Of a stretch of 47,111 bases of DNA, positions 32,054-38,576 are shown piece by piece. The DNA is from Cyanobacteria bacterium K_DeepCast_35m_m2_155. Its GTDB lineage: Bacteria; Cyanobacteriota; Cyanobacteriia; PCC-6307; Cyanobiaceae. The notes beneath the pieces were generated by a model. The model made no database searches and was not told the origin of the DNA. It saw only the letters and a program-made list of their open reading frames with translations. Made by a program: the position numbers and the translations under genes. The number at the start of each line of letters is the position of its first letter. Position 1 is the stretch's first letter. The stretch spans positions 1 through 47,111 of the forward strand of contig VGQS01000006.1 of NCBI GenBank assembly GCA_016882285.1, written 5' to 3'.

Positions 32054-33190
32054 TCAGCTTTGCGGCGTAGGGGGTGCCCAGCGCTTGATGATCTCTTCGG
32101 TATCTCCATCAAAGCGGAGCTCTGAGATGGCGATGTTGATGGCCTTGCGCGAGTCGGCGCTCAGGCCGCTGCCAAAAATGAACCCCTGGGGTGTGGTGTT
32201 GAACGTGCGGGCCTGCATCTGAAAGGCATCCGGCGTTTTGCTCTGTCCCCAGAGGTATTTGATGCGCGAGGTGTCGGCCATGATTGCTTGGACCTTGTTT
32301 GTTTCAAGGGCTTGGATCAGGGCCTTGTCTCCGCTCAACGGCACAATCCGCTGCAGGGATTCGGAGACGCTGAGGATTCCATCGGCCTGTTTTTCGAGCC
32401 ATAGCTGGCTCACCGTGCCTTCATCCACTCCGATCATGTGCTGCAGGGCGGCGGCGATGCCATCGCCACTCGCCGCATCGATCGGATCGCGCTGCTCAAG
32501 GAGCACGTTGGTGGCAGCACCAACGAAGATTGAGGTGATCACCAGACGAAAGAAGTTCGTCAGGGCCACCATGGTGAGGCTCGGGGGCGTGGATCCCATT
32601 TTGTAGATGCCAGTGCCCATCCCGATCATCATCCAGCCCTTGAAAAAGGTGTGACGGCTGTTGCGGCCGATGATGTCCTTGTGGTCGAATCCCCGTGAAA
32701 GGGTCCACAGAATCGTGGCCGCCACAAAGGACACAGCAAACAGCAGGATCGTCGTATCTCGGATGATCGGTTCGGTGATGACCGCGGCAACCGTTGTCAG
32801 AAAGCTTTCCTCCTCACGCCGATTCAGCAGGGCCAGGCTGTCTTCCTGGTAGGGAGAGGAGAAGCTCACCTGCTCCAGCCTCAGGGGCGTCACGTTGAGG
32901 CAGGAGATTGCCAGATCGATCTCACCGGCGGCTGCCTTCTGTACAGCCTGATTCGGGTTCTGCAGGGATTGATAGTTGAACGGTGTCTGGGTTTTGTGGG
33001 CAATCGCTTGCCACAGATCCACGGCGCTGCCACGGGGAAAGCCGTTGCGCACATCGGAGCAGGGAAGAGCGTTGTCAACAACGCCCACCCGCAGTGGTGG
33101 CGCTGCCGCGGCGCTGCGGGGTGCTTCAACCAACAGGCCCGCCGTTACCAGGCAGAGCCCTGCCAGATGCCACCGGCGGAAGGGAAGCAA
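32054..33190 (-). CDS. Ionotropic glutamate receptor-like channel (substrate-binding lobes split by a pore region)
   Basis: Signal peptide; SBP lobe 1 (LRVGVVDNALP...GEIDLAISCLNVTPLRLEQVSFSSPY); TM and pore-like segment; TM; SBP lobe 2 (MIGVDEGTVSQLWLEKQ...NKVQAIMADTSRIKYLWGQ). Confidence 0.8.
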   Translation of the reverse strand: MLPFRRWHLAGLCLVTAGLLVEAPRSAAAAPPLRVGVVDNALPCSDVRNGFPRGSAVDLWQAIAHKTQTPFNYQSLQNPNQAVQKAAAGEIDLAISCLNVTPLRLEQVSFSSPYQEDSLALLNRREEESFLTTVAAVITEPIIRDTTILLFAVSFVAATILWTLSRGFDHKDIIGRNSRHTFFKGWMMIGMGTGIYKMGSTPPSLTMVALTNFFRLVITSIFVGAATNVLLEQRDPIDAASGDGIAAALQHMIGVDEGTVSQLWLEKQADGILSVSESLQRIVPLSGDKALIQALETNKVQAIMADTSRIKYLWGQSKTPDAFQMQARTFNTTPQGFIFGSGLSADSRKAINIAISELRFDGDTEEIIKRWAPPTPQS

Positions 33191-35474: not shown

Positions 35475-35693
35475 GTGTCAGCCACTGACCCTTTCATTGT
35501 GAGTCCGGCTCCGTTTCCCCCTTCCAGCCCGAACCATGGCTGTCAGCGTGGGGCCGAGCACACGGCTCTCAAGTGGGGGTGTGACGGAGAGCTCTCGGCG
35601 CTCGATCTGCAGCGCATTCTGGAGCGTCTCACCGCCGTTGATCCTGCGGCCGAGGCGCTCAGCCAGCATTTCGATTCGGCTCAGCTCGGTTGA
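35475..35693 (+). CDS. Small hypothetical protein
   Basis: GTG start; [35 protein letters not shown]; last 13 nt overlap the convergent ClC gene. Confidence 0.45.
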   Translation: MSATDPFIVSPAPFPPSSPNHGCQRGAEHTALKWGCDGELSALDLQRILERLTAVDPAAEALSQHFDSAQLG

Positions 35694-37651
35694 GTGTCGC
35701 CCAGGCTGCGGCGAGCCAGGGCCCTGGCCTTTCCATCACGACTGGCCAGGCCGCACAGGGTCTTGGCGCTCAGCCCCGAGCCCGGCAGGCCATGGGGTAG
35801 CGCGGCCACACCCTCAGCGGGCACAGCAAACACCGGCAGCTGCCTCAGACCATTGGGCTCGAGTTGATCTTCAAGTTGGGCCAGCTGGGCGGTGCTGGGC
35901 AGCCAGATCAGCTCGTCGCGCAGGCAGTCGCGCAGCACACTGGTGCCTTGCTGGCGGCTCAAGCTGCGCTGGAGATCGGCCAGAGTAACCAGGCCGATCA
36001 CCCAGGGGCCATCCACCACCAACAGGCAGTGGCCATGCGCTTCAACCAGGCTGTTGAGGGCGTCTGCGGCGCTGGTCTCTGCTTCGAGCAGCAAGGGGGC
36101 TTCGGGTTCCAAGGCCTCGCAGACACTCAGCCGGCTGAGCACGGCTCGCCGCTGCTCTTCGCTGGGATCGGGCCCCAGCAGACCCGGATCCTGCAGCCCT
36201 TGCCAGCGCTCGACCAATGCAGCGCTCAGGCCTGCTGCTGCCATCAACGGCAGCACGATGCGAATATCCCGGGTGAGCTCAAACAGCAGGATCAGGGCCG
36301 TGAGCGGGGCTCGGGCGCTGCCAGCGAGCACCGCCGCCATGCCCACCATGGCGTAGGCCGGTGGCGCGGCGACGGCCAGATGCAGCCCACCCGTGCCCAG
36401 CACCTGCCCGTAGCAATTGCCCAGAACAGCCCCCAGCACCAGCGCCGGTGCAAATCCGCCACCCACAAAGCCGGTGGCGTTGCTGAGGCCAGTGGCAAGC
36501 AGCTTGGCGCCCAGCAGCAGCACCAGGGTCAACAGGGGAATGCCACCGCCATTGCCGAGCAGCGCTTCGATGGTGTCGTAGCCGACGCTCAGCACCTGCG
36601 GAAACTCCAGGGCGATCGCGCCGACAGCCAGGCCCCCGAGGGCACCAGTCAAGCCAACGGGCAGCTGCCGCAGCAGGTTCTGCAGGCGCTGGTTGCGCCC
36701 GAGCGCCAGCAGCTTGATCAGCGCCACCGACATGAAACTCGCCAGCACACCCAGCCCCAGATACAGCGGCAACTCCCAGAGGGAGCGCACGTCGTAAGCC
36801 GGCAGCCGCAGGATGGGCGTATCGCCCAGCCCCACCTGAACCACCAGGGTTGAGGTGATGGCGGCCACCAGCACCGCGCGCAGGCTGGGGCGCCCCCCAA
36901 GGCCGCTGAAGCTGCCTTCAAAAGCAAAGAACACACCGGCGATCGGGGCTTTGAAACCGGCGGCCAGGCCCGCCGCCACCCCTGCCGCCACCAGGGCTTT
37001 CTGGCTCTGGGGCGTCAGCCGCGCCTTCAGGGCCAGCCACAGGCCGATGTTGCCGCCCGATTCGACGCTGGGTCCTTCAGGCCCCAGTGACGCACCGCTG
37101 CCCAGGCTCAACGAGGCGCTCAGCAACCGCAGCAGCGGGAGCTTGGGCGCGGCAGCCATGTCGCCATCGGCCATGGCCATCAGACTGGGCAGTCCTGGTC
37201 CTAAATCGCCCAGCCAGCGCCGCAGCACCCCGACCAGTGCGCCGCCCAGGGTGGGCACCACCAGCACCGGCCAAAGGCTGAGCCAGTCGGGCACCTGCAG
37301 GCTGGGTAGGGGCGGCGGTTCGGGTGGTGGTGGCGGCGGCGGCAGTAGACCCAGTCCCCCCAGGCCGATCTGCAGCAGTTGTTGCAGGGGGGCGGCACGC
37401 AGGGGCGCAACCGGCGGTGGTGGTGGGGGCGGCACGGGCAGCTCCAGCGGATGCAAGGGGCTGCGGCCGATCGTCAGCAGCCCCTCCACAAAGGGCCCGA
37501 ACAGAAACGTGTTGATGAACCCCAGCAGCTCATGGAATCCCACCACCGCCAGTCCCGTCAGAACCCCGAGCAGGGCGGCCCAGGCCAGCAGGTTCCATTG
37601 CAGCGGCGGGGCCTGAAGCTCGCCGTCAGGCCTCGGGGCGAACGGTTGCAA
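35681..37651 (-). CDS. ClC family chloride channel/antiporter with CBS domains
   Basis: [55 protein letters not shown]-terminal CBS pair; start uncertain (ORF extends to 37750; TTG at 37651 reduces hemC overlap). Confidence 0.9.
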
Positions 37652-38576
37652 AAATCTCCTCCAGGATTTCCCCGGCGCCTTGGGCCTTGAGCTTGTGGGC
37701 CAGGGTGATGCCGATGGCCTCCGGTGCGTCCTGGCCGCCGCGGGCCTCATCGCGGATCAGGCGCTGGCCATCGAGGCTCGCCACCATGCCGGTGAGCACC
37801 AGTTCCTCACCCTCGAAGCGGGTGTTCACACCAATCGGCACCTGACAGCCACCTTCGAGCTCGCGCAGGAAGGCGCGCTCGGCCAGGCAGCGGCGGGCGG
37901 TGGGTAGGTGCTCGAGCACTTTGATCTGCTCCAGCACAGCGGTGTCGCCCTCGCGGCATTCGATGCCGAGAGCCCCCTGTCCCACGGCGTGCAGCGAGAT
38001 GCTCGGATCGATTAGTTCATGAATGCGATCACCCAGCCCGAGGCGACCCAGGCCCGCGGCCGCCAGGATCAGACAGTCGAATTCACCCGAATCAAGCTTC
38101 TCCAGGCGGGTGATCACATTGCCGCGCACGTCCTTGAACGTCAGGTGCGGAAAGTGATGGCGCAACTGGGCCAGCCGGCGCAGCGAGCTGGTGCCCACCA
38201 CCGCACCCTCGGGCAGGGTTGAGAGGGTTTTGTCCTTGTGTTTGGCGTGCACGACCAGGGCATCGGCCGGGTCTTCGCGTTCGGTGATGCAGCCCAGCAT
38301 CAGCCCTTCGGGCAGGTTGGTGGGCAGGTCCTTGAGGCTGTGGACGGCGATGTCGGCGCGGTCCACCAGCATCTGGGCCTCGAGCTCCTTGGTGAACAGG
38401 CCCTTGTCGCCGATCTTGGCGAGCGCCACATCGAGGATCTTGTCGCCCTGGGTGGCCATCGCCTCGATGGTGATCTCCAGGCCTTGGTGGGCCTTGGCCA
38501 GTTCATCACGCACCCAGTGGGTCTGCACCATGGCCAGCTGGCTGCGGCGGGAGGCGATGCGCAGGTGGTTGGCCAT
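37626..38576 (-). CDS. hemC: Hydroxymethylbilane synthase
   Basis: [52 protein letters not shown] at 38576. Confidence 0.96.

Follow-up and report, generated by a model that had tools for sequence, protein, structure and literature searches.

A picocyanobacterial protein of GluR0-like architecture in which a conserved GTGIYKM motif stands in place of the TVGYGD filter

The gene at 32054-33190 of the window (the whole stretch of 47,111 nucleotides that was analysed) encodes, in a freshwater picocyanobacterium, a protein with the domain order of GluR0, in which a different and strongly conserved motif, GTGIYKM, occupies the place of the K+ selectivity filter; for this reason we regard the protein as a putative non-K+ channel. 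Our best reading, which we hold with about as much doubt as belief, is that it forms an amino-acid-gated, tetrameric pore-loop channel of GluR0-like ancestry that is not K+-selective. What can be read from the sequence itself is the split binding domain with its ligand residues, 2 transmembrane (TM) helices, a conserved loop between them, the loss of TVGYGD and an arginine within the second helix.

Results

Gene and protein layout

The open reading frame lies on the minus strand, which the preliminary description had left unstated, runs from a TTG start at 33190 down to 32054, and specifies 378 residues. Behind a predicted signal peptide their order is, as that description had proposed, GluR0-like, with solute-binding (SBP) lobe 1, a TM helix, a short loop, a second TM helix and SBP lobe 2. 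The elements of this layout are as follows.

32054..33190, minus strand: whole gene, protein of GluR0 architecture with non-canonical pore (open reading frame; SBP_bac_3 over residues 33-372; Cyanobiaceae homologs)
33101..33190, minus strand: predicted signal peptide, residues 1-30 (hydrophobic N-terminus up to SAAAA; from sequence only)
32807..33100, minus strand: ligand-binding domain, first half (S1), residues 31-128 (from the Pfam match and from alignment with 1iit/1ii5)
32699..32770, minus strand: M1 transmembrane helix, residues 141-164 (hydropathy and low-confidence model)
32492..32584, minus strand: M2 helix, residues 203-233 (hydropathy and low-confidence model)
32066..32491, minus strand: ligand-binding domain, second half (S2), residues 234-375 (from the Pfam match and from alignment with 1iit/1ii5)

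SBP_bac_3 was the sole Pfam family above cut-off in the 378-residue protein (E=1.9e-19), and an insertion separated the halves of its match; a membrane block divides the type-3 solute-binding domain into its parts S1 and S2. With 2 TM helices inside the domain and no transporter genes adjacent, the protein differs from a family-3 binding protein of an ABC transporter, which would be continuous and accompanied by a permease and an ATPase. The closest solved structure in a single-sequence search was the ligand-binding core of GluR0 (Slr1257) from Synechocystis (E=6.6e-10). Hydropathy analysis gave 2 TM segments, at about 146-166 and 203-233, and the stretch between them contained no TM-like window. 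The source genome, in an assembly that is 83% complete, carries a single copy of the receptor gene, and a search of the same assembly for a canonical GluR0 found none.

Pore motif and its conservation

2 features define the pore region.

32594..32650, minus strand: pore helix and filter region, residues 181-199, TFFKGWMMIGMGTGIYKMG (11 of 19 columns invariant, mean pairwise identity 0.85)
32597..32617, minus strand: filter motif GTGIYKM, residues 192-198, replacing TVGYGD (homolog alignments)

The segment at 32582-32647, to which the preliminary description had assigned the pore, corresponds exactly to residues 182-203 and reads FFKGWMMIGMGTGIYKMGSTPP. The protein has GTGIYKM and no TVGYGD (TxVGYG) K+ filter, as had been claimed, and neither TVGYGD nor GYG was found anywhere in 10 members of the GTGIYKM clade, so that no canonical filter is kept elsewhere in these homologs. 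Alignment of picocyanobacterial homologs, which the same description had suggested, revealed many filter types in the wider family and a pore region that is conserved within the clade. Among 10 homologs with 38-51% overall identity, residues 181-199 formed the most conserved stretch of the protein, the best 19-residue segment elsewhere reaching a mean pairwise identity of 0.64. The 2 closest homolog pairs differed by 0 and 1 amino acids in this segment and by dozens in the remaining protein; change within the segment was mostly synonymous, and reading frames were open in nearly all clade members. With the highest conservation of the whole protein falling on this segment, the pore loop is not simply a decayed one. 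The loop between M1 and the pore helix (M1-P loop), in which F168 and D172 are kept across the clade, has a net positive charge and therefore fits the cytosolic side.

Relationship of the membrane block to the GluR0 pore

A whole-length profile comparison between the clade and canonical GluR0 homologs gave E=4e-30 over 333 columns, most of the signal coming from the binding domain. When only the TM block was compared, the GTGIYKM clade matched proteins of the TGPGSNT type (E=4e-8) and the TGPGSNT type matched the canonical proteins (E=4.7e-5), 0 of 100 column shuffles being equally good in either comparison. The direct comparison of clade and canonical TM blocks was not significant, with 4 of 100 shuffles equally good. 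Since both comparisons with the TGPGSNT type were significant and the direct one was not, homology of the pore module to that of GluR0 is, as judged by these alignments, transitive, by way of the TGPGSNT intermediate only. In the chain alignment GTG lies opposite GPG, and GPG opposite or adjacent to GYG, in a filter register that is uncertain and was off by one in one multiple alignment. A PDB sequence search with the TM block returned no match. Both Lig_chan and Ion_trans_2 of Pfam were matched by all 15 canonical proteins, and neither by any of 8 clade members; thus, of the 2 families that the preliminary description had put forward for profile searches, SBP_bac_3 was recovered and Lig_chan was not.

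The full-length AlphaFold model, built from a six-sequence alignment, had a pLDDT of 49 and was not used as fold evidence. A model of the TM block (pLDDT 59) placed M1 at residues 141-164, a helix at 178-191, a loop at 192-202 and M2 at 203-233; the 14-residue helix is too short for a membrane span, and at this low confidence the block resembles a short pore helix and loop, not the plain solute-binding structure that had been considered beforehand. When this model was used as a Foldseek query, 25 of 32 matches were P-loop tetramers, including the AMPA receptor, NaK, KcsA, Kir, TREK and CNG, all of them non-significant (best E=2.0) and of a kind that the structure predictor saw during training. 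Together, the model and these matches point weakly to a pore loop. Both termini of GluR0 are outside, opposite to the KcsA topology, as determined with PhoA fusions (PMC13099474), and we assume by analogy a GluR0-like topology for the present protein, with the pore loop entering from the cytosol.

Ligand site, cysteine pair and M2 arginine

The following single residues were located by alignment.

32879..32881, minus strand: Arg104, equivalent to the S1 Arg that contacts the alpha-carboxylate of the ligand (invariant in the clade; role according to PMC2950845)
32273..32275, minus strand: Asp306, equivalent to the S2 Asp that contacts the alpha-amino group of the ligand (Asp in 9 of 10 clade members, Glu in 1; role according to PMC2950845)
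33059..33061, minus strand: Cys44, a Phe/Tyr position in most canonical homologs (family alignment)
32900..32902, minus strand: Cys97, a Pro position in most canonical homologs, possible disulfide partner of Cys44 (family alignment; disulfide conjectural)
32546..32548, minus strand: Arg215, basic residue inside M2 common to non-canonical types (family alignment)

In ionotropic glutamate receptors (iGluRs) an S1 Arg and an S2 Asp hold the alpha-carboxylate and alpha-amino groups of the ligand (PMC2950845), and the presence of Arg104 and Asp306 is that expected for an amino-acid ligand. The Cys44/Cys97 pair occurred in nearly all non-canonical types, the LLSTDH type being the exception. From comparison with known iGluR ligand sites we take positions 44 and 97 to adjoin the ligand, and a disulfide between them is for that reason plausible.

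A basic residue within M2 (Arg, or His in the NDGIDT type) was present, to within one column, in 46 of 46 rows representing 8 types: GTGIYKM, NDGIDT, TGPGSNT, TGEGDAE, IGPSPLDK, IGSGIHS, LLSTDH and SSSGLYKM. It was found in 0 of 30 TVGYGD rows, 0 of 4 VGGADNKG rows, 0 of 3 TSGKP rows and 0 of 2 QADEMP rows. Because helical-face analysis of M2 gave a conservation moment with p=0.096, we do not declare Arg215 to be pore-facing. In the non-canonical types, then, 3 features occur together, namely the missing GYG filter, the basic M2 residue and, except in LLSTDH, the Cys pair. The preliminary description had included neither the M2 arginine nor the cysteines, nor the many different filters of the homologs, and was to that extent incomplete.

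Related proteins in picocyanobacteria

Homologs belonging to the clade, at 38-51% identity, were found in other picocyanobacteria, among them Cyanobium, Cyanobium usitatum and Synechococcus sp. ATX 2A4. On one scaffold, the Cyanobiaceae display the filter types TVGYGD, GTGIYKM, TGPG(S/T)NT, TGEGDAE, NDGIDT, IGPSPLDK, IGSGIHS/IGTGLNL, SSSGLYKM, LLSTDH, VGGADNKG and others; by this sequence comparison GTGIYKM is one of about 10 such pore types in picocyanobacteria. Several types can reside in a single genome, as in G064 (GTGIYKM, SSSGLYKM and LLSTDH) and G192 (IGSGIHS, TVGYGD and LLSTDH). In a maximum-likelihood tree of 87 sequences, which has several long branches and an unsure deep order, most non-canonical types fell on one side and the TVGYGD proteins on the other (support 90/76, moderate). 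Nearly every filter type required only one or two changes on this tree, and GTGIYKM appeared paraphyletic, with NDGIDT nested inside it.

Several of these types merit separate description. TGPGSNT was the commonest non-canonical type sampled, with 18 Cyanobiaceae sequences (loci L013, L017-L023, L025, L028, L030 and others) and a near-invariant ATGPG(S/T/G)NT pore that we could match to no described filter. A VGGADNKG filter in an otherwise GluR0-like pore (L031, L036, L041, L044, L128 and L132) was common to Cyanobiaceae and to genomes from the same class as the Opitutae MAG discussed below; the strong match between the TM block of this type and that of canonical proteins (E=1e-27) indicates that it is mainly the filter that has changed in these proteins. 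The LLSTDH type (L034, L040, L049, L059 and L060), whose position in the tree is unsure, is GluR0-like with a shortened pore loop and an M2 Arg, and is without the Cys pair. Finally, 2 stop-interrupted non-canonical copies, L010 (genome G230) and L057 (genome G333), are apparently recent pseudogenes or assembly errors.

Genomic surroundings and transfer

The neighbours of the gene specify ClpB, pterin-4a-carbinolamine dehydratase, UPF0047, DUF2721, carboxypeptidase M32, pyrophosphatase and a CLC chloride channel. The last of these, a CLC-type channel with a CBS domain, is encoded on the minus strand at 35681-37750 of the window, ~2.5 kb from the receptor gene, and nothing suggested that the two share an operon. 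The receptor gene is not adjoined by genes for an ABC permease or ATPase, and in the available flanks of the homologs we saw none of its neighbours in the window again.

One GTGIYKM-type clade member, L071:1360-2472, lies in an Opitutae contig. It is about 51-53% identical to the present protein and is its sister in the tree (support 100/98). Contamination as the origin of this copy is disfavoured by the neighbouring gene on the contig, which has up to 74% identity within its own order and at most 41% to Cyanobiaceae. Most likely, on this sequence evidence, the contig is genuinely from Opitutae, and the receptor gene has therefore been transferred between phyla, in either direction. Other homologs sampled in the Opitutae class have TVGYGD, TIGYGD or VGGADNKG-like filters. 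Searches of phage and viral contigs gave no clade relatives, and viral matches to the canonical profile fell mainly in the K+-channel pore region.

Discussion

If the protein works as a GluR0-like channel, 4 subunits would assemble with their binding domains on the periplasmic side, an amino acid would on binding shut the clamshell and so pull on M1 and M2, and the pore loop would enter from the cytosol as in GluR0. In that loop G-T-G-I-Y-K-M would take the place of the K+ filter; when aligned through the related TGPGSNT and TGEGDAE types, it fits best as GYG changed to GxG, with loss of the Tyr, Thr and Asp. The replaced filter together with Arg215 should abolish K+ selectivity and leave a weakly selective or non-K+ pore, for which the NirBac channels, with working non-selective pores despite replaced P-loops, are a tested precedent (PMC4607889), and the Cys44/Cys97 pair suggests a ligand pocket unlike that of GluR0. 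The gene stands alone without conserved neighbours and appears to have passed into an Opitutae genome, as a self-sufficient channel would be expected to do. Among the mechanisms named in the preliminary description, altered selectivity is, on sequence grounds, the best supported, since no part of the protein is more strongly constrained than the new pore motif. The label of diverged paralog, which had also been offered, suits the protein as a member of a large non-canonical GluR0-like branch in the tree of picocyanobacterial sequences; it does not suit it in the sense of decay, the pore being its most constrained region.

An Arg buried in M2 could equally block conduction, and the protein may possibly, though with clearly less probability than our best reading, be a non-conducting transmembrane amino-acid receptor whose pore module serves as a signalling or scaffold element, its pore and cytosolic loops (F168 and D172) docking a partner. 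The loss of all K+-filter chemistry, the basic residue within M2 of the non-canonical types, the unmatched channel families of Pfam and the retention of F168 and D172 in the M1-P cytosolic loop would all accord with such a role; yet a signalling domain and a conserved neighbour gene are absent, the cytosolic loops are very short and a single gene was transferred to Opitutae, so that no obvious partner presents itself, and it is the P-loop itself that is the most conserved motif. An anion-permeable or mixed channel, made positive within its pore by the M2 basic ring and the lost filter Asp, seems improbable. R/H in M2 of the non-canonical types, as against 0 of 30 canonical proteins, would accord with it, and in edited GluA2 a pore Arg makes the channel less permeable to Ca2+ and measurably permeable to Cl- (PCl/PCs 0.14, PMC6754398). 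The GluA2 Arg, however, sits in the filter of a channel that is mainly cation-conducting and whose Cl- flux is negligible with gamma-2 (PMC6754398), and the helical-face analysis does not establish that Arg215 faces the pore.

We attach very little probability to the idea that this is an ordinary solute-binding protein, secreted or anchored in the membrane, that serves an amino-acid ABC transporter. SBP_bac_3 as the only family above cut-off is what such a protein would give, but the domain is split by 2 TM helices and a strongly conserved loop, no permease or ATPase lies alongside, and the whole-length relatives are GluR0-type proteins. Even less credible is a decaying paralog on its way to a pseudogene: although some relatives are broken by stops (the copies in G230 and G333), frames are open in nearly all clade members, and the pore is both the most constrained region and one in which change is mostly synonymous. 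We thus retain the amino-acid-gated, non-K+ channel as the best reading. Its extension to a picocyanobacterial family of amino-acid-gated channels with filters rewritten in many ways, a basic M2, a non-K+ or possibly anion-permeable pore and a disulfide-remodelled pocket is a speculation that we consider doubtful as a whole.

In textbooks GluR0 connects K+ channels with the glutamate receptors of animals, and K+ selectivity must have been lost en route to the latter. A branch with several conserved filter replacements offers natural variants for the question of how glutamate receptors lose K+ selectivity, and also raises the question of what use picocyanobacteria, with their small genomes, make of amino-acid-operated pores. 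In the open literature that we searched, prokaryotic iGluRs lacking a K+ filter figure as a small group of unsettled position, and the picocyanobacterial diversity goes unmentioned; we found no description there of the non-canonical GluR0 branch. Prokaryotic iGluRs without a recognised K+ filter in the P region and with GluR0 topology were nonetheless described as Group 2 by Ger et al. in 2010 (PMC2950845). The 2 sampled proteins with a QADEMP filter, which we presume to be of the Group 2 kind, group with the canonical proteins in the tree and, unlike the present protein, have neither the M2 basic residue nor the Cys pair.

With GluR0 and the cyanobacterial TVGYGD homologs the protein shares the split SBP_bac_3 domain, the S1-M1-P-M2-S2 order and the ligand Arg and Asp; it differs from them in lacking TVGYGD and any Lig_chan/Ion_trans_2 match, in its basic M2 residue, and in having Cys44/Cys97 where they have Phe/Tyr and Pro. 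The TGPGSNT/TGEGDAE types have the closest well-sampled pore modules outside the clade and share with it the M2 Arg, the Cys pair and a GxG filter, although the filters read TGPG(S/T)NT or TGEGDAE against GTGIYKM and overall identity is about 25-32%. NirBac channels, which are of the Kir type, lack a ligand-binding domain of this sort and have no demonstrated sequence relation in the filter, resemble the present protein as relatives of K+ channels in which the P-loop has been replaced, and they conduct non-selectively (PMC4607889).
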